Of a stretch of DNA of 64,000 bases, positions 12,516-24,977 are shown in pieces. The notes under the pieces are model-generated. The model saw only the letters and a program-made list of their open reading frames with translations, searched no databases and was not told where the DNA came from. Position 1 is the first letter of the stretch. Every line of letters begins with the position of its first letter. This DNA comes from Limnochordales bacterium (GTDB lineage Bacteria > Bacillota > Limnochordia > Limnochordales > DUMU01), in NCBI GenBank assembly GCA_014896315.1, contig JADBKP010000005.1, forward strand, positions 124,001 through 188,000. The letters are read 5' to 3'. The position numbers were made by a program, and so were the translations under genes.

Positions 12516-13508
12516 ATGGTGAGTAAACCCAAAGTGCTGTGTACCCGGGTGCTTCCCGGACCGGCGATGGACCGTCTGCGGACCGAGACCGAGCTTACCC
12601 TGAACGAGGAAAACCGGCCCCTGACCCCAGAAGAGCTGCTGGAGCTGGTCCGAGGGAAGGACGGCATTCTTACACTTCTCACTGAGAACGTCACCAGGAC
12701 GGTGCTTGAGGCCGGGCGGCCAACTCTAAAGGTGGTGAGCAACTACGCGGTAGGATACAACAACATCGACGTTCAGGCCGCTACCGAGCTGGGGATACTG
12801 GTTTGTAACACTCCGGGTGTACTGACTGAGGCCACCGCCGACCTGGCCTGGGCCTTGCTTATGGCCATCGCCCGCCGGGTGGTGGAAGGCGACCGCTTCA
12901 TGCGGGCAGGCCGTTTCAAGGGCTGGGAGCCGGGACTCCTGCTCGGAGCGGATGTTTTCGGCAAGACCCTGGGTATTGTAGGACTTGGCCGTATTGGCGA
13001 AGCAGTCGCCCGCCGTGCCCGCGGCTTCTCGATGCGCATCCTCTACTACGACGCTCGTCGCCTTGAGCCTGATCAGGAGAAGATACTGGGGGTGACGTAC
13101 GTACCGTTGCCGCAGCTTCTCTCCGAGTCCGATTACATATCGATCCATACGCCTCTCACCCCCGAGACGCACCACCTGATCGGAGAGAAAGAGCTGCGGA
13201 TGATGAAGCCGACCGCATACCTGATCAACACGAGCCGCGGCCCGGTGATTGACGAAGCCGCTCTGGTCCGAGCCCTGCGGGAGAGGTGGATCGCGGGCGC
13301 AGGGCTGGATGTATATGAGAATGAGCCGGCCATGGCTCCGGGGTTGGCGGAGCTGGAGAATGTAGTCCTGCTGCCTCACCTCGGCAGTGCCACCCGGGAG
13401 ACCCGGGAGCGCATGGCGCACATGGCCGTTGACAATCTGCTGGCCGGTGTACGCGGGGAGCGGCCGCGCTACCTGGTCAATCCGGAGGTGTACTCCCGTC
13501 ATGCATGA
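12516..13508 (+). CDS. D-2-hydroxyacid dehydrogenase (glyoxylate/hydroxypyruvate reductase type)
   Basis: 330 residues. The Rossmann motif is GLGRIGEAVARR, with catalytic Arg in NTSRGPVIDE, Glu in YENEPA and His in LPHLGSAT. The overall sequence resembles GyaR-type D-glycerate dehydrogenases using NAD(P)H. ATG 12516 and TTG 12513 both suit the AAGGAGAG upstream. The 3' end overlaps the hpt start by 8 bp. Confidence 0.88.
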   Translation: MVSKPKVLCTRVLPGPAMDRLRTETELTLNEENRPLTPEELLELVRGKDGILTLLTENVTRTVLEAGRPTLKVVSNYAVGYNNIDVQAATELGILVCNTPGVLTEATADLAWALLMAIARRVVEGDRFMRAGRFKGWEPGLLLGADVFGKTLGIVGLGRIGEAVARRARGFSMRILYYDARRLEPDQEKILGVTYVPLPQLLSESDYISIHTPLTPETHHLIGEKELRMMKPTAYLINTSRGPVIDEAALVRALRERWIAGAGLDVYENEPAMAPGLAELENVVLLPHLGSATRETRERMAHMAVDNLLAGVRGERPRYLVNPEVYSRHA

Positions 13509-14061
13509 GGATGTGGCAGAGGTTCTGCTCTCCGCCTCTGCCATCCAGGCGAAAGTAGGAGAGCTAGGGCAACAAATCACTCGCGACTACCAGGGTAAAG
13601 ACCTGGGATTGATCTGTATTCTCAAGGGAGCCCTCATTTTTATGGCGGATCTGATCCGCCATATTGAACTGCCCGTTACCGTAGACTTCATGGCGATCTC
13701 CAGCTACGGAGCGGGAACGAAGAGCTCGGGAGTGGTCCGGATCCTCAAGGATCTGGACCATCCCATCGAGGGCAGGCACATCCTGATCGTGGAGGACATA
13801 ATCGATAGCGGTCTTACGTTGCGGTATCTCATCGAAAACCTACGTTCCCGTCGTCCCGCGAGCCTGCGCGTCTGCACATTGCTGGACAAGCCGGCCCGCC
13901 GGGTGGTCGAGTGCAACATCGACTACAACGGTTTCCAGATTCCCGACCGGTTCGTGGTGGGTTACGGTCTGGATTACAACGAAAGGTACCGCAACCTGCC
14001 CTACATCGGTGTGCTGAAGCCGGAGGTATACCAGCGTGAATTGCAGGTGGGGCAGAGGTGA
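13501..14061 (+). CDS. hpt: Hypoxanthine phosphoribosyltransferase
   Basis: 186 residues. The PRPP-binding loop [14 protein letters not shown], the [13 protein letters not shown] segment and the C-terminal [14 protein letters not shown] are classic for HPRT. It salvages hypoxanthine and guanine to nucleotides. The start was set by GGAGGTG at 13484-13490. The stop and the guaA ATG overlap as TGATG, so the two are coupled. Confidence 0.94.
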
Positions 14062-15653
14062 TGGGGGGCGCCAGCATGCGTCAGCTTCCCGTTCTCATAC
14101 TCGATTTTGGCGGGCAATACACGCAGTTGATTGCTCGGCGTGTACGGGAGGCGCACGTCTACTGTGAAATCGCCCCCTGTGACGTGCCCTGGTCGGAACT
14201 CTCTTTGCAGAGGCCGCAAGCGATAATCCTGTCCGGCGGCCCCGCCAGTGTCTATCAGGAAGGAGCTCCTCGCTGCGACCCGGCCATCTTCCAGGCAGGC
14301 GTGCCGGTCCTGGGGATCTGCTACGGCATGCAATTGATGGCCCGGGAGCTCGGCGCAGATGTAAGGGCCTCGGAGGAAGGTGAGTACGGACCGGCAGATC
14401 TGGTTCTGCGAGAGGCAAGCCCTCTCTTTGCCGGTATCCTCTCACCGACGCCGGTCTGGATGTCCCATGGCGATCAGGTGGTGACCCCCCCGCCCGGCTT
14501 TCGCGTGCTGGCTTCCACGGCGGTCACACCGGTAGCTGCCATCGGCGATGAGCAGCGGAAATTGTATGGGGTGCAGTTCCACCCGGAAGTGGCTCATACG
14601 AGGGAAGGGAAGGCCCTGCTCAAAAACTTCCTGTTTCGCATAGCCGGGCTTGAACCTTCGTGGACGCTTTCGGCTTTTCGGGAGGAGACGATCGCTCGTA
14701 TCCGGGCGGAAGTCGGTTCACGAAAGGCAGTTTGCGGCCTGAGCGGTGGGGTGGATTCCGCTACTGCAGCGGTCCTCGTTCACCAGGCTATTGGCGACCA
14801 GCTCACCTGTATTTTCGTCGATCACGGGCTGCTGCGGGCGGGGGAGGCGGAAGAAGTAGTCCGGACCTTTCGCGACCGGTTGCGGATACCGCTCATTCAC
14901 GTCCGGGCGGAAGATAGGTTCCTCAACAGATTAAAAGGTGTTGTCGACCCTGAGGCGAAGCGGCGCATAATCGGCGAGGAGTTTATCCGGGTGTTTGAAG
15001 AGGAAGCCTCCCGTCTTGGGGATGTGACCTATCTGGTGCAGGGCACCCTCTACCCCGACGTGATCGAGAGCGGCGGCGCGCCCGGTTACGGCAACGGGAC
15101 CTCCGGCAACGGGGGACAACGGGGACGGGCGGCGGTTATCAAATCCCACCACAACGTGGGCGGTCTGCCGGAACGGATGAACCTCAAGCTCCTGGAACCA
15201 CTGCGGCTCCTCTTCAAGGACGAGGTGCGCGTGCTCGCCGGCGAGCTGGGCCTGCCGGAGGAGATAGTCTGGCGCCAGCCCTTTCCCGGTCCGGGCCTGG
15301 CCGTTCGCATCATTGGGGAAGTGACGCGTGAGCGGCTCGAACTCCTGCGGGCGGCCGACCGGATCGTCACCGACGAGATCAGGAAGGCGGGCCTTGAGAG
15401 GTCCATCTGGCAGGCGTTTGCCGTACTGCCCGGCGTGCGGACGGTCGGAGTGAAGGGTGACGGGCGATCCTATGCGGAACTGGTGGCGATCCGGGCGGTC
15501 ACCAGTGAAGACGGCATGACTGCCGACTGGGCGCGTCTGCCTTACGACCTTCTGGGTCGCATCTCCACCCGGATTATGAACGAACTGCCCTCCGTCAACC
15601 GGGTCGTCTACGACATCTCTCCCAAGCCGCCCGCTACCATAGAGTGGGAGTAG
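14061..15653 (+). CDS. guaA: GMP synthase (glutamine-hydrolysing)
   Basis: About 530 residues in three parts: a class-I amidotransferase (GICYGMQ nucleophile; FHPEVAHT), an ATP pyrophosphatase ([12 protein letters not shown]) and the C-terminal dimerisation domain ending KPPATIEWE. It converts XMP to GMP. Between VIESGG and [11 protein letters not shown] there is a Gly/Asn-rich insert (about residues 337-352) roughly ten residues longer than in E. coli GuaA. ATG 14061 couples to hpt; ATG 14076 with GGGGGG upstream is an alternative. Confidence 0.96.
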
Positions 15654-15679
15654 TTCTGATCAGAGGAGCGCAGGGCAGC

Positions 15680-16819
15680 ATGCTGGAACTAGACCCGGCC
15701 GCATCTTACCTGCGATGGCAGACCGCCCCGGGCGTGCGTGATGTGTTGCCGGAAGAGGCGACTGTGCGCCGGCAGCTGGAGGCGATCATCCGGGAGACCC
15801 TGGCTGCCGCCGGCTATCAGGAAGTGGAGACCCCCATTTTCGAATATGAGGAAGTGATTCGCGCCGGCGGCTGGCTGCAGGACGAGACGGGGGAGTGCGG
15901 CGGAGTGGTGTTGACCGGCGCCGGCTCTCCCGAGGTCTACCGCTTTTTCGACCGCGAAGGCCACACCCTGGTGTTGCGGCCGGACATGACGACCCCCATC
16001 GCCCGGCTGGCCGCCACCCGGCTGGCCAGCGCGCCACGGCCTCTGCGCCTCGCCTACATAGCTGATGTTTTTCGCTACGAAGAGGTGCATGCGGGGCGGC
16101 TGCGTCAGTTCCGCCAGGCAGGCGTTGAGCGGATAGGCGGCGCCCGGGAGATCGATGCCGACATGGAGATTCTTTCTCTGGCAAGTCGCCTGCTTGCCCG
16201 GCTCGGCCTTTTCCGGTTCCGCATCGATATAGGGCATGCGGAGCTGGTGCGGGGGCTGATAGCCGCCGGCCGCTTCGGAGGGCGGGAGGCCCGACTGATC
16301 CGGCAGGCTTTGCGCCGACGTGATTATGTGCTCTTGCGGGAGCTGGTCGAGCAGCGGGGGGAGCAGGTCGGACCACAGGATCGGCAGGTCAGCGCGGCCC
16401 GCCGGCTATTGCTTGAGCTTCCTCGCTGGCGGGGGGGATTTGCGATGCTGGAGGCGGCTCGCAAGCAACTGGCTTTCCTGCTGGGTGACTTCCCCCAGCT
16501 CGCAGCCGCCCTGGACGATCTTCATGCCCTGTTGACCCGGGCTAAGGAGGAGGGGCTCGGGATCTACGAGCGAGAGAGCAGTGGCGGAGGACCAACCCAG
16601 GTTATCGCCCTCGACCTTGGTCTTGTGCGTGATCTCGGCTACTACACCGGCCCCGTGCTCGAAGGCTTTGTTCCCGAGGTCGGTTTCACGCTGTTGACCG
16701 GCGGACGTTATGATCGGCTGCTAGAACAGTTTGGCAGCCGGCCCGAGCCGGCTACAGGGTTTGCTATTGGCCTGGAACGGGTAATCCTTGCCCGGGAGCG
16801 GGCCGGCCGGCTGCGTTGA
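15680..16819 (+). CDS. hisZ: ATP phosphoribosyltransferase regulatory subunit HisZ
   Basis: 379 residues resembling histidyl-tRNA synthetase catalytic cores (RPDMTTPIARLAATRL; VFRYEEVHAGRLRQFRQAG; LTGGRYDRLLEQFG) but without the anticodon-binding domain. HisZ is needed by short-form HisG, which follows. The start at ATG 15680 is preferred because AGAGGA lies upstream. First gene of the his block; 26 bp after guaA. Confidence 0.92.
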   Translation: MLELDPAASYLRWQTAPGVRDVLPEEATVRRQLEAIIRETLAAAGYQEVETPIFEYEEVIRAGGWLQDETGECGGVVLTGAGSPEVYRFFDREGHTLVLRPDMTTPIARLAATRLASAPRPLRLAYIADVFRYEEVHAGRLRQFRQAGVERIGGAREIDADMEILSLASRLLARLGLFRFRIDIGHAELVRGLIAAGRFGGREARLIRQALRRRDYVLLRELVEQRGEQVGPQDRQVSAARRLLLELPRWRGGFAMLEAARKQLAFLLGDFPQLAAALDDLHALLTRAKEEGLGIYERESSGGGPTQVIALDLGLVRDLGYYTGPVLEGFVPEVGFTLLTGGRYDRLLEQFGSRPEPATGFAIGLERVILARERAGRLR

Positions 16820-16844
16820 CAGCCTCTGCGGCTTGTGTTACCAT
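16816..16844 (+). promoter_or_regulatory. Internal promoter candidate before hisG
   Basis: A perfect TTGACA (16816-16821) overlaps the hisZ stop codon. A 17-bp spacer leads to TACCAT (16839-16844), four of six bases of the -10 consensus. It would start transcription about 55 nt before the hisG ATG and let hisG onward be expressed apart from hisZ. Confidence 0.6.
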
Positions 16845-16905
16845 GCCGGCATCGTCAGAAGGTGGGGGTAGAACGATATGGTACCGGGAGGCCCGGAGCC
16901 CGACC

Positions 16906-17571
16906 ATGTTAACCATAGCTGTGCCTAAAGGGCGTGTGCTTACGGCGGCGGTGGAGCTCTTCCGGGAAGCCGGGTTGACGGCTTTACCCGGAGAGGAGTT
17001 GGAGGAATCCCGTCGCCTGGTGATTGAAGATGAGGAGGCGGGTCTCCGGCTGCTTCTGGCCAAACCCTGGGATGTGCCTACCTACGTTGAATACGGCGCC
17101 GCCGACCTGGGGCTGGCGGGAAAGGATGTCTTGCTGGAACGGGGCAAGGCGGTAGCCGAATTGCTGGATCTTGGTATCGGGCGGTGTCGCATGATCTGCG
17201 CGGTGCCCGCCGATTCGAATATCACCAACCTTGCTGACGCAAGACTTCTTTTTCCCTTTCGTGTGGCGACCAAATACCCGCAAATTGCCGCCACTTTCCT
17301 GGAACGCCAGGGTATCGCGGCCGAAATCATCAACCTGCACGGGTCGGTGGAGCTGGCGCCCCTTGTCGGACTGGCGGATGGGATCATCGATCTGACCGAG
17401 ACCGGGCGCACTCTGCAAGAGAACGGTCTGCGCATTGTCGCCGACATCCTGTCCGTGACCACGCGCCTTGTGGCCAATGCCGTCTTGCACAAAGTCAAGC
17501 AAGACGAGATAGATCAATTGGTGAACAGGTTGGAGAAGGCTGTTGCGGCCCGGGTGGCAACGCAAAGCTAG
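16906..17571 (+). CDS. hisG: ATP phosphoribosyltransferase, short form
   Basis: 221 residues, the length of HisG-S enzymes that lack the C-terminal regulatory domain and need HisZ. It begins LTIAVPKGRV, has AADLGLAGKDVLLE, and the PRPP-binding loop GSVELAPLVGLADGIIDLTETGRTL. It starts histidine synthesis by joining ATP and PRPP. CGGAG 7-8 nt before ATG 16906 sets the start; the frame is open upstream without support. Confidence 0.95.
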   Translation: MLTIAVPKGRVLTAAVELFREAGLTALPGEELEESRRLVIEDEEAGLRLLLAKPWDVPTYVEYGAADLGLAGKDVLLERGKAVAELLDLGIGRCRMICAVPADSNITNLADARLLFPFRVATKYPQIAATFLERQGIAAEIINLHGSVELAPLVGLADGIIDLTETGRTLQENGLRIVADILSVTTRLVANAVLHKVKQDEIDQLVNRLEKAVAARVATQS

Positions 17572-17590
17572 AGGAAGGTGGCTTGCGACC

Positions 17591-19045
17591 ATGATCACTC
17601 TCATCCGCAGCGAAGAGCTGGGCGAGCACCTCGAACGGGAGGTGCGCCGGCGTCTTGGGCGCCGTTTCGATCTGGCAGGGCAAGAGGCAGCCCCGGAAGT
17701 GATGGCGCGGACAGCCGCGATCTTTGGTGAACCGCTGACGCCAGCTCAGGCGGTGGAGCGGATAGTTCAGGACGTTGCTGAACGGGGCGACGCCGCCGTG
17801 CTGGAGTGGACGCGCCGCATCGATGGGGTCGTTTTGGAGCCGGAAGATCTGTGGCTGGGGCCGGCCGATTTTGAAAAAGCGTTTGCCTCCCTGGACGTGG
17901 CGACCCGTGACGATCTTGAGATAGCGGCCGAGCGTATCCGGCGTTTCCATCGGGCAGCCCTGCCCCGCCCCTTCTTCTTGCAGGACGAAGCCGGCAATCT
18001 CATGGGGCAGAGGCTGGTGCCGCTGGAGAGTGTGGGGGCGTATGTGCCGGCTGGGCGTGCTCCTCTGGTATCCACGGTATTGATGACCGTGATCCCGGCT
18101 CGGGTGGCCGGGGTGGACCAGGTGGTGGTGGCCACTCCGCCCGGTCCGGGTGGTGTCGTCCATCCGGCGGTGCTGGCGGCGGCCCGGCTGGCGGGGGCAA
18201 GCCGCGTGTTGCGGGTGGGGGGAGCGCAGGCGATCGCAGCCCTGGCGTACGGGACGGAGTCGATCCCGCCGGTCGACAAGATCGTCGGGCCGGGCAACCT
18301 CTTTGTCACACTGGCCAAACGGATGGTTTTTGGCGTGGTGGGCATTGACATGCTGGCGGGCCCGAGTGAGGTGGCGGTGGTGGCCGATGGTTCCAGCGCC
18401 GCGGCCGATCCGCCGCTTCTGGCTGCCGACCTGCTCTCCCAGGCCGAACACGATCCCGAGGCGGCCTGCATCTTCATCACCACCGATGCGGAGCTGGCCG
18501 AGCGGGTGCGGGCCGAAGTCGAGCTGCAGGTGGAGAGCCTGCCGCGGGGTGAGGTGGCGCGACAGGCGTTGCAGCGGCACGGGTTCATCTTCGTGGTAAG
18601 GAATCTGGAGGAGGCTGCCAGGGTGGTCAATGCCATTGCGCCTGAGCATCTGGAATTGCAGCTCTCCGATCCCTGGGCTTTCCTCACCCAGGTCCGCCAT
18701 GCCGGCGCCATCTTCCTCGGTCGGAACGCCTGCGAACCGTTAGGTGACTACCTGGCCGGACCCAACCACGTGTTACCAACGGGCGGCGCGGCCCGTTACG
18801 CTTCGATGCTGGGGGTTGAGGATTTTCTGCGGCGCAGCTCGGTGCTGCAGATAAGCGGCGAAGGTCTGCTGGAGATCGGGGGGGCGGCCGTGCGGCTGGC
18901 AAGGCTGGAAGGGCTGGAGGCGCACGCCCGTTCAGTTGCCTGGCGGCTCAAGGAAGCGGATGGAGCTTCCGGTCTCTTCAACGACAGGGGCGCCGGCGCG
19001 GCGGAGACGGACAGGGCGGGCAGCGCAGGGATCGCAGGTAGGTAG
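17591..19045 (+). CDS. hisD: Histidinol dehydrogenase
   Basis: 484 residues, somewhat long at both ends (usual about 430). GAYVPAGRAPLVSTVLM, GGAQAIAALAYG, VDKIVGPGN, the zinc and catalytic region IAPEHLELQ, and GPNHVLPTGGAARYAS are all present. It oxidises histidinol to histidine with two NAD. GAGGAAGGTGG precedes ATG 17591. A Gly/Ala-rich tail of about 30 residues follows the conserved domain. Confidence 0.95.
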   Translation: MITLIRSEELGEHLEREVRRRLGRRFDLAGQEAAPEVMARTAAIFGEPLTPAQAVERIVQDVAERGDAAVLEWTRRIDGVVLEPEDLWLGPADFEKAFASLDVATRDDLEIAAERIRRFHRAALPRPFFLQDEAGNLMGQRLVPLESVGAYVPAGRAPLVSTVLMTVIPARVAGVDQVVVATPPGPGGVVHPAVLAAARLAGASRVLRVGGAQAIAALAYGTESIPPVDKIVGPGNLFVTLAKRMVFGVVGIDMLAGPSEVAVVADGSSAAADPPLLAADLLSQAEHDPEAACIFITTDAELAERVRAEVELQVESLPRGEVARQALQRHGFIFVVRNLEEAARVVNAIAPEHLELQLSDPWAFLTQVRHAGAIFLGRNACEPLGDYLAGPNHVLPTGGAARYASMLGVEDFLRRSSVLQISGEGLLEIGGAAVRLARLEGLEAHARSVAWRLKEADGASGLFNDRGAGAAETDRAGSAGIAGR

Positions 19046-19083
19046 GCGGCTCAGGGGAGCAACGAAGGGAAGTGAACCACTGC

Positions 19084-19755
19084 ATGAGTGACGGAGGGCA
19101 GGCCGGCAAGGAACAGGAAGAGGCGCGCAAGGCTACGGTTGCCCGTGAGAGTGCGGAGACGAGGATCAAGGTCGAGCTTGACCTGGACGGCCGGGGCAGC
19201 AGTCGGATTCAGACCGGAATCGGTTTTTTTGACCACATGTTGTCGGCGCTGGCCCGCCATGGCTTCTTCGATCTGACGGTGACAGCCCAGGGCGATCTGT
19301 ACGTGGACGGCCACCACACGGTGGAGGATGTCGGCATTTGCCTGGGAAAGGCGCTGGACCGGGCTCTGGGGACGAGGGCGGGGATCGCGCGATTTGGCTG
19401 GGCGGCAGTTCCCATGGATGACGCCTTGGTGCTGGCGGCGGTCGATTTAAGCGGCCGGCCTTTCTTGGGGGTTGAGCTCCCCTTGAGCACTCCCCGGGTG
19501 GGAGAGTTCGAGACGCAGCTCGTGGTGGAGTTTTTCCGGGCTTTCACCTGGACGGGGGGCTTCAACCTGCATCTGCGGAAGCTATCCGGCAGCAACGACC
19601 ACCACGTGATCGAGGCTGCGTTTAAGGCGGTGGGCCGTGCTCTGGCGATGGCGGTTAGGGTTGAGCCACGGCTAGGCGGCGAGGTGCCATCGACCAAGGG
19701 GCGGCTGGGTGTAGAGTCCGAGCCACCAGGTGAAGTGGCCGGGCCGACGGAGTGA
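19084..19755 (+). CDS. hisB: Imidazoleglycerol-phosphate dehydratase
   Basis: 223 residues. GIGFFDHMLSALARHG, VDGHHTVEDVGI, and the second metal motif GSNDHHVIEAAFKA show the manganese-binding dehydratase fold. It is the monofunctional form, without a phosphatase domain. ATG 19084 is preferred over GTG 19072 because AAGGGA ends only one base before the GTG. The C-terminus runs about 15 residues past the usual STKGRL end. Confidence 0.94.
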   Translation: MSDGGQAGKEQEEARKATVARESAETRIKVELDLDGRGSSRIQTGIGFFDHMLSALARHGFFDLTVTAQGDLYVDGHHTVEDVGICLGKALDRALGTRAGIARFGWAAVPMDDALVLAAVDLSGRPFLGVELPLSTPRVGEFETQLVVEFFRAFTWTGGFNLHLRKLSGSNDHHVIEAAFKAVGRALAMAVRVEPRLGGEVPSTKGRLGVESEPPGEVAGPTE

Positions 19756-19761
19756 CGGCAA

Positions 19762-21252
19762 GTGGCGGAGCTTTTGCTGGCGATCCTGGATTACGGGATG
19801 GGTAACTTGCGCAGCGTGAGCAAGGCCCTGGAGGTGGCGGCCCGCGCCCATCCGGCGGTGAAGGTCGCGGTCACAAGTGATCCGGTCGAGGCCGGTCGGG
19901 CGGCGGGTGTGATTCTTCCCGGGGTCGGGGCGTTTGGGGCAGCCATGGCCAACCTGGAAAAAAGCGGGTTGGACCGGGTGGTGCGGGAGGTCATTGCTGA
20001 CGGCCGGCCCTTTCTGGGCATCTGCCTCGGGCTGCAACTCCTCTTTGACGAGAGCGAGGAACATTTCGCAGATGATACCCTGCCCCGGGGGCTTGGTATT
20101 CTGCCTGGCCGGGTGCGGCGCTTTCCAGTGGGGCTGAAAGTGCCCCAGATCGGGTGGAACCAGCTCAACCTGCGGTTTCGTGAACCTCATCAGAATCCGC
20201 TGTGGCGCGGCGTCCCGCAGGGGGCGTACGCGTACTTTGTTCACTCGTACTATGTCGATCCTCAGGATCCCGGAGTCATCGCCGCCACATCCGGCTACGG
20301 GATTGAGTTTACGGCGGCAGTCTGGCAGGAGAACCTCTTTGCCGTCCAGTTCCACCCGGAAAAGAGCAGCCAGGTGGGTCTTGAGATGCTGCGCAACTTT
20401 GCCTGTGCGGTGGGACGGGCCGCCGGTGCGACCGACTTCTTCCTGCCCGCCATCGACCTGCGGCATGGGCGCTGTGTGCGCTTGGTCCAGGGTGATCCGG
20501 GCCGGGAGACCAGGTATGCGGAGGACCCGGTGGAAGTGGCCAGAGAGCTGGTCCGGCAGGGGGCACGGCGGCTGCACGTGGTTGACCTCGATGGCGCGTT
20601 TGCCGGCGAGCCGCGCCAGCTGGAGTTGGTCGCCGGCATCTGCCGGGCCGTGCCAGAGGCCCGTGTTGAGCTGGGGGGCGGGCTGCGGACACTGGAGCAG
20701 ATCGAGGCCGCCTTTGCCGCCGGGGTGAAGGATGTGATTGTTGGCAGCGCCCTTTTGAGCAATGAGGCGCTGGTTGCCGAGGCCTGCCGCCGCCACCCGG
20801 GGCAGGTGACCGCCGGCATTGACGTGCGGGGCGGCCGGGTGGCGGTGGGCGGGTGGCAGGAGGAGAGCAGTGTGACGGCGCAGGAGGCGGTGCGGCGGGC
20901 GGCCGCCCTGGGGGTGCGGCGGTTCATCGTCACCGACATAAGCCAGGACGGGACGTTGCAGGGGCCGAACTTCAAGCTTATCTGGGAGATAGCGGCGGCC
21001 GGGCCCGGCCTTGAGTTTGTGGTCTCGGGCGGGGTGCGCGGGGCGGAGGATGTCCGGGCCGCAGCCGCTGTGGGCTGGCCGGTCACCGGCGTGGTCGTCG
21101 GCCGGGCATTGTACGATCGCCGGCTGACGGTGGCTGAGGCCCTGGCGGCGGCCCGCCGCGGCCTGATCCTGCGGCCCGAGCCCGAATCCCCGGCAGCTGG
21201 GCCTGAACCCGACCCAGCAGCTGCCGCCGCTGCGCCTGACGACGTGACGTAG
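19762..21252 (+). CDS. hisHA: HisH-HisA fusion: glutamine amidotransferase joined to ProFAR isomerase
   Basis: One uninterrupted 496-residue frame. Residues 1-216 are HisH: ILDYGMGN, nucleophile Cys88 in GICLGLQ, and His198/Glu200 in QFHPEKSS. After a linker of about ten residues, residues 227-468 are HisA: AIDLRHGRCVRL with Asp232, GIDVRGG with Asp354, TDISQDGTLQGPN and FVVSGGVRGAEDV. Residues 471-496 form a Pro/Ala-rich tail. HisH feeds ammonia to HisF, which is a separate gene just downstream; HisA makes the HisF substrate. The well-known fusion in eukaryotes is HisH-HisF, so this pairing is unusual. GTG start 6 bp after hisB. Confidence 0.95.
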   Translation: MAELLLAILDYGMGNLRSVSKALEVAARAHPAVKVAVTSDPVEAGRAAGVILPGVGAFGAAMANLEKSGLDRVVREVIADGRPFLGICLGLQLLFDESEEHFADDTLPRGLGILPGRVRRFPVGLKVPQIGWNQLNLRFREPHQNPLWRGVPQGAYAYFVHSYYVDPQDPGVIAATSGYGIEFTAAVWQENLFAVQFHPEKSSQVGLEMLRNFACAVGRAAGATDFFLPAIDLRHGRCVRLVQGDPGRETRYAEDPVEVARELVRQGARRLHVVDLDGAFAGEPRQLELVAGICRAVPEARVELGGGLRTLEQIEAAFAAGVKDVIVGSALLSNEALVAEACRRHPGQVTAGIDVRGGRVAVGGWQEESSVTAQEAVRRAAALGVRRFIVTDISQDGTLQGPNFKLIWEIAAAGPGLEFVVSGGVRGAEDVRAAAAVGWPVTGVVVGRALYDRRLTVAEALAAARRGLILRPEPESPAAGPEPDPAAAAAAPDDVT

Positions 21253-21357: not shown

Positions 21358-22125
21358 ATGCTTGCCAAACGGATCATCCCCTGCCTGGACGTGAAGGACG
21401 GGCGGGTGGTCAAGGGTACGAACTTCGTCTCGCTGCGGGATGCTGGTGATCCCGTCGAGCTGGGCGCCTACTACGACCGCGAGGGAGCAGATGAGCTGGT
21501 TTTCCTGGACATCACCGCCTCTGCCGAACGCCGCCGGACCATTGTTGACCTGGCCCGGCGGGTGGCGGAGCAGGTTTTCATCCCGTTCACCGTTGGCGGC
21601 GGGATCTCATCAGTGGAAGAGATCCGGGAGATCTTGCTGGCAGGGGCGGATAAGGTGTCGATCAACACGGCGGCAGTTGAGCGGCCGGAGTTGATCACCG
21701 AGGGTGCGGAGCGTTTCGGCAGCCAGTGCATAGTGGTGGCCATCGATGCCCGCCGGCGTCCGGGCGAAGCCGGCCCCCGTTTCGAAGTGGTAATCCACGG
21801 TGGCCGCACCCCCACGGGCATCGACGCTATCGAGTGGGCCAGGGAAGCAGAGCGGCGGGGGGCGGGCGAGATCCTGCTCACTAGTATGGACACGGACGGC
21901 GTCCAGGGCGGCTATGACCTGGAGCTTACCCGGGCGGTGGCCGAGGCCGTCTCGATCCCGGTGATCGCCTCGGGGGGAGCAGGGAGCCTCGCCGATCTGC
22001 GGGATGCCATTCAGGTCGGCAAGGCCGATGCCGTGTTGGCCGCCTCCATCTTTCACTTCCGCCGCTACACCATTCGCGAGGCCAAGGAGTATCTGCGGGA
22101 CGCCGGCATTCCGGTCCGGCTCTAG
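21358..22125 (+). CDS. hisF: Imidazole glycerol phosphate synthase cyclase subunit
   Basis: 255 residues, full length. [16 protein letters not shown] with the catalytic Asp, VVAIDARR with the second Asp, [13 protein letters not shown] and the phosphate loop VIASGGAGS identify HisF. It is a (beta/alpha)8 barrel that takes ammonia from the HisH domain of the preceding protein. AAGGAG (21343-21348) fixes ATG 21358, leaving a 105-bp gap after the fusion gene. Confidence 0.96.
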
Positions 22126-22162
22126 CGAGTCCTCCGCGACTTGAAAGAGGAGAGCTGTGGCA

Positions 22163-22828
22163 ATGCAAACGGCAGACGGGAAACCGCTGTGCTTTCAGAA
22201 CGGCTTGATTCCGGCCATTGTCCAGGACGCCCGTACCGGGCAGGTGCTGATGCTGGCTTACATGAACGAGGAAGCGTTGCAGCGCACCCTCACCGACCGG
22301 CGCACCTGGTTTTGGAGCCGTTCCCGTCAGGAGCTTTGGCCCAAGGGAGAGACGAGCGGTAACTTCCAGGAGGTTATCTCCGTCACGGCGGACTGTGACG
22401 GTGATGCGCTGCTCGTCCGGGTGAATCAGCATGGTACGGGCGCCTGCCACGAAGGGGACTTCTCCTGTTTCCACCACCCACTTGCCACTTTTGCCGAACC
22501 ACCGGATGCCGCGGAAACCGGCGGGGGCGATCCGTGGGCGGACTTTGCGGTTCTGCAGGAGCTATGGGAAGTGATCCGGGACCGCCAGCGCAATCCCCGG
22601 CCGGGCTCGTACACCGCCTCCCTCCTCCAGGAGGGGCCGGCGCGGGCCGCGCAGAAGGTGGGCGAAGAGGCGGTGGAGACAGTTATCGAGGCTGTCCGGC
22701 AAAACCGTGAGGCTTTCATATACGAAGCGGCCGATCTTCTTTACCATCTTCTCGTCTTGTTGGCCGCCACGGGAGTCACGCCGGCAGAGCTTTTCGCCGA
22801 ACTCCGTTCACGCAGACATGCAGGGTGA
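22163..22828 (+). CDS. hisIE: Bifunctional phosphoribosyl-AMP cyclohydrolase / phosphoribosyl-ATP pyrophosphatase
   Basis: 221 residues. The N-terminal HisI part has [10 protein letters not shown], the metal Asp/Cys segment [11 protein letters not shown] and the zinc cysteines of [11 protein letters not shown]. The C-terminal HisE part has PGSYTASLL and [13 protein letters not shown] with the MazG-like acidic helices. It does steps 2 and 3 of the pathway and ends the his run. GTG 22157 is an alternative start. hisC and a histidinol phosphatase are not in the window. Confidence 0.95.
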
Positions 22829-22954
22829 CCGCCAACTCTAATAGGATTTTCTTGTCTTCCTCAAGCAGGGCAGGGGTGGCTCCTTATTGAATACTCGCTC
22901 TCAGCAAACTGAGGCGGTTCACAGGTGTTGGCTGCCCGCGGAGGAGGACAGCAG

Positions 22955-23851
22955 GTGAACGGAGACCATGGGTTTGCGACGGGCGCAGGCGTCAAGCTTA
23001 GTGCTGCTTTCGTCCCGGCACGTTCGAGCCGGCAGCTCTGGCTTCTGTTGATGGCGGTAGTGCTGCTGGTTGCCGGGTGTTCGGGAGGAGTGCCCGTTCC
23101 CAGTGAGCCTTATAGTGTCTCCGGCCGGGTGACCGAGTTGTCGACCGGCCGGGGGCTTGCTAATGTTACCCTCTACTTCTCCGGCGGTTTTGGGACGACG
23201 AAGACCGGGGAAGATGGCACGTGGGCTGTTACGCAGCTTCGAGGAAGCGTGACGATAACGCCCGTCCTGCCGGGGTACGTCTTCCAGCCGGCAAGTCGCG
23301 TCGTGAGCGGGCCGTCCAGCAAGGTCGACTTCATTGCTACCACCGATACCTCAGGCAAAGAACCGATTGCGGGTGCGGCCGTCATTACGCTGGCTGAAGC
23401 ACAGGCCTGGGCCCGCCGCCGGGGCGCCCGCCAGATCTTTATCGACGTGGCCGCATACTACTGGCAGCTTGCCCCCCGCTACGGCATCCGGCCGGAAGTA
23501 GCGTATGCCCAGAGTGCCAAGGAGACCGGCTTTGGCGCGTTCACGGGTGCGGTATCACCCGACTTCCACAACTGGTGTGGCCTTAAGACCCGGTACGCCA
23601 ACGGCGATGATCCCGATGATCACGCCCGTTTCCCTGACGATGAGACAGGAGTCCGCGCACATTTCCAGCATCTGGCAGCCTACGCCGGGCTGCCACTTCC
23701 TCCCGGTGAATCCATCGTTGATCCCAGGTACGAGCTGGTGAGCAAGGGCAGCGCTCGTTACGTTGAGGATCTGGGGGGAAGGTGGGCGCCCAACCCCGAC
23801 TACGGCCGTAGCATTGTCCGGGACTACCTCAACGACATGCTGGGGCGGTGA
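22955..23851 (+). CDS. Lipoprotein with Ig-like and glucosaminidase-type domains
   Basis: 298 residues. The hydrophobic stretch LLLMAVVLLVAGCSGG ends in a lipobox Cys. Residues about 50-120 look like a carboxypeptidase-regulatory/Ig-like fold (SVSGRVTELSTGRGLANVTLYF). Residues about 150-298 resemble the mannosyl-glycoprotein endo-beta-N-acetylglucosaminidase/Flg-type domain, with AQSAKETGFGAFTGAV (likely catalytic Glu) and NWCGLK. It is probably an anchored peptidoglycan hydrolase. GTG 22955 has GGAGGAGGA at ideal spacing. Confidence 0.82.
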   Translation: MNGDHGFATGAGVKLSAAFVPARSSRQLWLLLMAVVLLVAGCSGGVPVPSEPYSVSGRVTELSTGRGLANVTLYFSGGFGTTKTGEDGTWAVTQLRGSVTITPVLPGYVFQPASRVVSGPSSKVDFIATTDTSGKEPIAGAAVITLAEAQAWARRRGARQIFIDVAAYYWQLAPRYGIRPEVAYAQSAKETGFGAFTGAVSPDFHNWCGLKTRYANGDDPDDHARFPDDETGVRAHFQHLAAYAGLPLPPGESIVDPRYELVSKGSARYVEDLGGRWAPNPDYGRSIVRDYLNDMLGR

Positions 23852-24307: not shown

Positions 24308-24697
24308 ATGACTCAGGAACGAACGGTCGTGTTCGACAACGGACGTTACAACGGGCGGACCCTAATCGAATGGTTGCCCGACATAGTTGCACGTATCGTG
24401 GAGCGGTTCGCCCCATTACAGGTGATCGTGTTCGGTTCGTTGGCGAAGGGCCAGGAAGGGCCGGACAGTGATATTGACCTTCTGGTGGTACTGCCGCGCG
24501 TAGAAGACAAACGCCAGGCTGCGATCGAGATCGGGGTGGCTACTGCTGATTTCCCGGTCCCAATGGACATTATCGTCACCGATCCTGAAGAGATCTCGTC
24601 TCGTGGGAGCGAGCCGGGATCGGTTCTGAAAGCTGCACTTACTGAGGGGCGTGTAGTTTATGACCATACAGAACGACGACGGCCGGCAAAAGAGTAG
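24308..24697 (+). CDS. MNT-type nucleotidyltransferase domain protein (HEPN partner)
   Basis: 129 residues with the minimal nucleotidyltransferase motif GSLAKGQEGPDSDIDLLVVL (about 50-69) and a third acidic position in PMDIIV. MNT proteins act as antitoxins of HEPN toxins, in some cases by AMP-adding activity. ATG 24308 follows GAGGCTCAGGAG. Its 3' end overlaps the HEPN gene by 38 bp. Confidence 0.87.
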   Translation: MTQERTVVFDNGRYNGRTLIEWLPDIVARIVERFAPLQVIVFGSLAKGQEGPDSDIDLLVVLPRVEDKRQAAIEIGVATADFPVPMDIIVTDPEEISSRGSEPGSVLKAALTEGRVVYDHTERRRPAKE

Positions 24698-24977
24698 GTG
24701 GATAGACCGGGCAAAAGAATGGATCCGTTATGCCCAAAGTGACCTGCGGGCGGCAGAGCGATTGTTAGCTGACGATCTTGTCCTGGCCGGAATATCATGT
24801 TTCCACGCTCAACAGGCAGCCGAGAAGGCGCTCAAAGCAGTTCTGGTTCTTTACGGCATCGACTTTCCCAGGACGCATGATCTCGTGCTTCTTTCTCGAT
24901 TGCTACCCCGTGGCGTGGCTGGTATGCCCGATGAGATGATGGAGGTTGAGCTGGTCTGTAGGGACTATGCTGGCTAA
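24660..24977 (+). CDS. HEPN domain protein, C-terminus probably lost by frameshift
   Basis: 105 residues. WIDRAKEWIRYAQSDLRAAERLL and the core GISCFHAQQAAEKALKAVL followed by GIDFPRTHDLVLL are typical HEPN helices. The frame stops at 24977 while relatives run about 25 residues more. A second frame (24969-25061) reads APELLARVYAGARYEDG, resembling the conserved YAxxxRYPD end of the family, so a one-base shift near 24960-24980 is likely. It pairs with the MNT gene as a toxin-antitoxin-like module. Confidence 0.78.
   Translation: MTIQNDDGRQKSRWIDRAKEWIRYAQSDLRAAERLLADDLVLAGISCFHAQQAAEKALKAVLVLYGIDFPRTHDLVLLSRLLPRGVAGMPDEMMEVELVCRDYAG

Follow-up and report, generated by a model that had tools for sequence, protein, structure and literature searches.

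A HisH-HisA fusion conserved in a bacterial family of the Limnochordales and arisen a second time in archaea may tether ProFAR isomerase to IGP synthase

HisA makes PRFAR and the HisH-HisF pair consumes it, so the question raised by the present locus is whether a single polypeptide carrying HisH and HisA brings the producer and the consumer of this intermediate into one complex. The gene lies in the window (the whole stretch of 64,000 nucleotides that was analyzed, from a Limnochordales genome of 2.59 Mb in 20 contigs), inside a cluster of the order guaA-hisZ-hisG-hisD-hisB-(hisH-hisA)-hisF-hisIE, of which the coordinates are given in Table 1. An initial annotation had described one unbroken frame with a complete glutaminase and a complete HisA barrel, had set it apart from the familiar HisH-HisF fusion, and had suggested a HisA-HisH-HisF complex.

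The description of the gene was borne out. The frame is a single one and runs on the forward strand from a GTG start to a TAG stop (21250-21252), with 496 codons and zero internal stops. By comparison with equivalog profiles, full-length matches above the cut-off were obtained for both TIGR01855 (HisH: residues 7-214, 206.6 bits, cut-off 105.4) and TIGR00007 (HisA: residues 228-459, 236.9 bits, cut-off 228.95), and the Pfam domain assignment concurs with this HisH and HisA split. The hisF profile TIGR00735, on the other hand, scored just 52.5 bits against the fusion (cut-off 294.6), showing that the C-terminal barrel is not HisF, for which a separate gene is present. On these profile matches the gene is confirmed as HisH-HisA, i.e. 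two complete domains in one protein. The C-terminal tail of the window protein is absent in G001, a genome of the same genus, and different in G002, a genome of another genus of the family.

Table 1. Coordinates of the hisH-hisA fusion gene, its parts and the neighboring genes in the window.
Feature	Position	Strand	Remarks
guaA, GMP synthase	14058..15653	+	heads the cluster
hisZ-like regulatory subunit	15644..16819	+	259 bits against a 272-bit cut-off; hisS scores 213
hisG, short form (hisZ present)	16816..17571	+	
hisD	17543..19045	+	
hisB	19072..19755	+	directly upstream of the fusion
hisH-hisA fusion gene	19762..21252	+	496 aa; GTG start with GGAG ~10 bases upstream; TAG stop
HisH domain, residues 1-217	19762..20412	+	class I glutaminase; C88/H198/E200; HisF-coupling PGVG 53-56, Y158, K201
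Junction, about residues 213-226	20398..20439	+	without ATG at the usual hisA start
HisA (ProFAR isomerase) barrel, about residues 225-470	20434..21171	+	D232, D354
Pro/Ala-rich C-terminal tail, 471-496	21172..21249	+	low model confidence
hisF, separate gene	21358..22125	+	own AAGGAG site; 384 bits to TIGR00735; expected synthase partner of the HisH half
hisIE	22157..22828	+	

The fusion was found in all three examined genomes of the window family (G000, G001 and G002), with the junction in the same frame. At the protein level the window fusion shares 71% identity with that of G001 and 62% with that of G002. The distance from the F of FHPEKS to the P of PA[IV]D was exactly 32 residues in each of the three; the sequence of the junction was poorly conserved among them, whereas its length was constant, and an ATG at the normal HisA start was observed in none of the three. 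Within the HisH part, G002 carries an insertion of ~30 residues after the first helix, and G001 one of 43 residues that is rich in Gln, Gly and Pro.

The initial annotation had named a sequencing error that hides a stop or a frameshift at the junction as grounds for refutation, and an error of sequencing or assembly at a normal hisH stop was weighed as an explanation of the unbroken frame. Such artefacts do exist: a candidate in G065 (L156, C12:27000-32000) was rejected as a fusion, because its HisH C-terminus is frameshifted and its hisA retains its own ATG. In the window family, however, the same junction at the same length recurs in three divergent genomes, and the HisH C-terminal helix is read correctly in each of them. 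Since three orthologues at 62-71% identity share the junction, we regard a sequencing error as practically inconceivable.

Fourteen genomes of the window order were examined. In seven genomes outside the family whose his genes were inspected (G003, G004, G005, G007, G008, G010 and G013), the hisA frame was without hisH, and in two more (G009 and G011) hisA was located on a different contig from the detected hisH; no match was obtained in G006 and G012. Because hisA lies outside the hisH frame in these nine other genomes, the fusion is peculiar to the window family within its order.

Both halves of the protein appear competent. Comparison of residue conservation over 26 fused or in-frame neighboring HisH/HisA pairs showed that C88, H198, E200, D232 and D354, the residues named in the initial annotation, are not only present in the window protein but invariant, as are Y158 and K201 of HisH and the glycine pairs G306/G307 and G423/G424 of the two phosphate-binding sites of HisA. 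D232 and D354 are the catalytic aspartates on strands 1 and 5 of the HisA half, and the HisH half possesses the Cys-His-Glu triad along with the oxyanion PGVG strand (P53-G56). In the alignment to Thermotoga maritima HisH (1gpw), as counted by residue, C88/H198/E200 correspond to C84/H178/E180, and Y158/K201 to Y138/K181; according to the title of PDB entry 2wjz, K181A Y138A is a constitutive HisH mutant. The separately encoded HisF of the window retains R5, E46, D98 and K99 (numbering as in T. maritima HisF), which are gate and contact residues. At the level of sequence, nothing in the HisH half suggests a lost need for HisF or a lost grip on it. A role of the HisA half as a PriA-type HisA-TrpF dual isomerase was considered and rejected, as TIGR01919 scored 166.8 bits against it (cut-off 306.5) and trpF is present elsewhere in the genome (PRAI family match, 109.5 bits), so that no TrpF function is required of the HisA half.

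The initial annotation had also proposed a search for the same domain order in related genomes, which returned the three family members described above and, beyond them, two archaeal genomes. For this screen, a profile built from the three family fusions was run with strict thresholds, under which diverged fusions may be missed, over even samples of whole genomes from the fusion's own phylum (398 genomes), an actinobacterial phylum (396), a proteobacterial phylum (398) and an archaeal phylum (295), and a fifth sample of 291 genomes from the phylum of an Armatimonadota genome was screened with profile A3. About 90 matches from the five phylum samples cover both domains in-frame yet contain stop codons, i.e. 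they are neighboring genes, and some of them may be HisH-HisF rather than HisH-HisA: the matches in G011 and G030 proved to be HisH-stop-HisF neighbors and were rejected, as were the long frames in G226 and G1712, where hisA lies in another ORF. Since ~90 in-frame neighbors retain their stops, the HisH-HisA fusion is rare and not broadly favored.

Inspection left two unbroken HisH-HisA frames outside the window family, one of 457 aa in G1502 and one of 452 aa, counted from its likely start, in G1375; both genomes are archaeal, and the two proteins are 73% identical to each other. Their junction landmarks are separated by 28 residues, compared to 32 in the bacterial family. In G1492 and G1533, which belong to the same archaeal family and are the nearest relatives of the fused pair, hisH and hisA are separate, overlapping genes. 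In a tree of concatenated HisH and HisA, the bacterial and the archaeal fusions were placed apart, with unfused relatives beside each, and a single fused clade was rejected by the AU test (log-likelihood difference 234.6, p about 3e-44). From this separation and rejection it follows that the fusion arose at least twice, the archaeal HisH-HisA fusion being an independent second origin.

Fusions of other his genes were also observed in the window order. G013 (C369; L184:2518-4128:-, also L020), from another family of the order, has hisA and hisF joined in a single frame of 537 aa; its operon lacks hisH, which was not detected elsewhere in this 91%-complete genome either, and in its HisF the position of D98, a HisH-contact residue, is occupied by Ala. 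In both examined genomes of another genus, hisF, hisI and hisE form one open frame, of 557 aa in G004 (L186:2821-4491:-; a single-contig genome of 3.8 Mb) and of 526 aa in G007 (L185:5239-6816:+), the latter being without hisH between hisB and hisA. The order therefore holds three different his fusions, hisH-hisA, hisA-hisF and hisF-hisIE, and this variety suggests a tendency toward packing or stop loss.

The arrangement of the two domains was modelled from a paired alignment of natural in-frame hisH-stop-hisA pairs, in which the stop was read through solely for the alignment rows; an earlier prediction from only three sequences had been poor (pLDDT 70.5). The resulting model of all 496 residues had a pLDDT of 93.2 and a pTM of 0.90, and such a pTM for a two-domain protein suggests that the relative placement of the predicted domains can be read with some confidence. 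The junction was modelled as the HisH C-terminal helix (203-220), a turn, a short helix (223-226) and HisA strand 1 (227-234), with block-mean pLDDT values of 96-98 across it, i.e. the predicted connector is short and mostly helical. Each modelled domain superposes on known structures at 1.4-2.2 Å (HisA alone on solved HisA/PriA: 1.4-1.5 Å, HisH alone on solved HisH: 1.6-1.7 Å), whereas the full-length model and yeast HIS7 gave a TM of 0.38 with an rmsd of about 20 Å over 554 columns. A HIS7-like seating of the barrel on the glutaminase (1jvn/1ox4) is unsupported by this model: the predicted place of the HisA barrel is not the one that HisF takes in yeast HIS7, and the HisF face of HisH would be free unless HisA obstructs it.

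On balance, we consider it probable that the protein is a bifunctional HisH-HisA and that pairing in trans of its HisH half with HisF tethers ProFAR isomerase to IGP synthase. The C-terminal HisA barrel would isomerise ProFAR to PRFAR, while the N-terminal HisH glutaminase would bind HisF, the product of a separate gene, in trans and supply it with ammonia for the conversion of PRFAR to IGP and AICAR. As HisH is covalently attached to HisA, its pairing with HisF would make ProFAR isomerase part of the IGP synthase complex, placing the producer of PRFAR beside its consumer, and the fourth and fifth steps of histidine synthesis would be kept together in a fixed stoichiometry. We infer that translation yields chiefly the 496-aa polypeptide, that it binds HisF and that flux or assembly benefits from the proximity. 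The HisA-HisH-HisF complex suggested in the initial annotation is consistent with the findings, in that the HisF-coupling residues are kept, HisF is intact and HisA stands outside the HIS7 seat of HisF in the model. Tethering is favored by the single frame with both equivalog domains and by the equal length of the junction despite insertions of up to ~43 residues elsewhere; the rarity of the fusion, the description of HisA as a monomer outside HisH/HisF, the other fusions of the order and a possible internal start speak against it. The stronger proposition, that HisH-HisA and HisF form a stable assembly of three enzymes with preferential delivery of PRFAR from HisA to HisF, and that this assembly was covalently fixed at least twice, we regard as rather doubtful.

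The main competing account accepts the fusion as real and confines its benefit, if there is any, to linked 1:1 synthesis, or takes it for a near-neutral stop loss; HisH and HisA would then function just as unlinked proteins do, with neither channelling nor a functional trimer. We think this unlikely, but worth serious weight. The operon is tightly packed and GC-rich, the loss of one or a few stops would fuse the ~90 in-frame neighbors, and the sequence of the junction is poorly conserved; the hisA-hisF (G013) and hisF-hisIE (G004 and G007) frames of the same order, which look as if the cluster were fusion-prone, lend this account further weight. However, the fusion has outlasted divergence to 62% identity in the bacterial family and to 73% in the archaeal pair, the same consecutive enzyme pair was joined in two origins, and the length of the junction is constant within each lineage.

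That translation of hisA begins anew at a codon within the C-terminal helix of HisH, so that the gene gives partly or mainly two products, is improbable. An ATG at codon 209 of the window gene follows GGTGGG (duplex energy −7.0) and could yield free HisA, and the ATG at codon 261 of G001 follows the same motif (−6.2); but G002 lacks a corresponding ATG, the GGTGGG stems from conserved HisH codons (V-G), GTG 217 of the window has no ribosome site, the usual hisA start is without ATG in every family fusion, and the full-length product is expected regardless. It is still far less credible that HisA occupies the seat of HisF on HisH, so that glutaminase and barrel would pair within one molecule, in competition with HisF or in its place. 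The barrels of HisA and HisF are homologous, and HIS7, a HisH-HisF fusion, has the same domain order, yet the modelled arrangement is unlike that of HIS7, and a complete hisF with the HisH-contact residues retained is found in the same operon.

Among known systems, HIS7/HisHF (eukaryotes, some deltaproteobacteria and Archaeoglobales; 1jvn, 1ox4) likewise consists of an N-terminal HisH and a C-terminal barrel of the HisA/HisF type, but its barrel is HisF, whereas in the window fusion the barrel is HisA, HisF is separate, the connector is short and the predicted arrangement is another one. The HisH and HisF heterodimer (T. maritima, T. thermophilus; 1gpw, 7ac8, 1ka9) is alike in the triad, the coupling residues and the gate and contact residues of HisF, and differs in that the window HisH bears HisA at its C-terminus. 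With the HisA/PriA ProFAR isomerases (2y88, 5a5w) the HisA half shares the barrel fold and the catalytic aspartates, but the known HisA proteins are characterized as monomers that stand alone, outside the HisH/HisF complex, although the gene order hisH-hisA-hisF would suggest HisH/HisA contacts (PMC6941341). Histidine operon neighbors are also joined in the hisNB, hisIE and HIS4 fusions, none of which includes hisA; these were listed together with HIS7/hisHF in a gene-fusion survey of 2007 (PMC1963479). A survey of archaea reported HisHF and HisA/F-HisIE fusions, the latter again combining a HisA/HisF-type barrel with a histidine enzyme, though with a partner other than HisH (PMC11237513), and a review of 2023 named seven his genes in fusions, hisA being absent, and called the hisBHAF metabolon unconfirmed (PMC10138114).

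In the open-licence literature on histidine-pathway fusions we found no description of a hisH-hisA fusion, which bears on the earlier concern that it might already be well described; the fusion is real and conserved, has evolved twice and is apparently undescribed. As a gene fusion it is of moderate interest, and of greater interest if the three-enzyme complex is true, in which case the assembly would supply the hisBHAF metabolon, long suspected, with its first physical evidence. The twice-arisen fusion is a natural covalent link of ProFAR isomerase to IGP synthase, and the metabolon idea thereby becomes testable with one purified protein and HisF.

Some further features were observed around the cluster. 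No Rfam elements were found in the window between 12500 and 24000. A phosphoribosyltransferase gene and guaA (13387-15653) run directly into the his cluster, and guaA adjoins the his cluster in most inspected genomes of the window order, a possible purine-histidine link via AICAR. Directly 3' of hisIE, at 22925-23851, lies a gene for a glucosaminidase-domain protein with a lipoprotein-like N-terminus. Farther downstream of the his cluster, overlapping genes for an MNT-like nucleotidyltransferase and a HEPN protein (24308-24697 and 24660-24977) probably represent a toxin-antitoxin pair.
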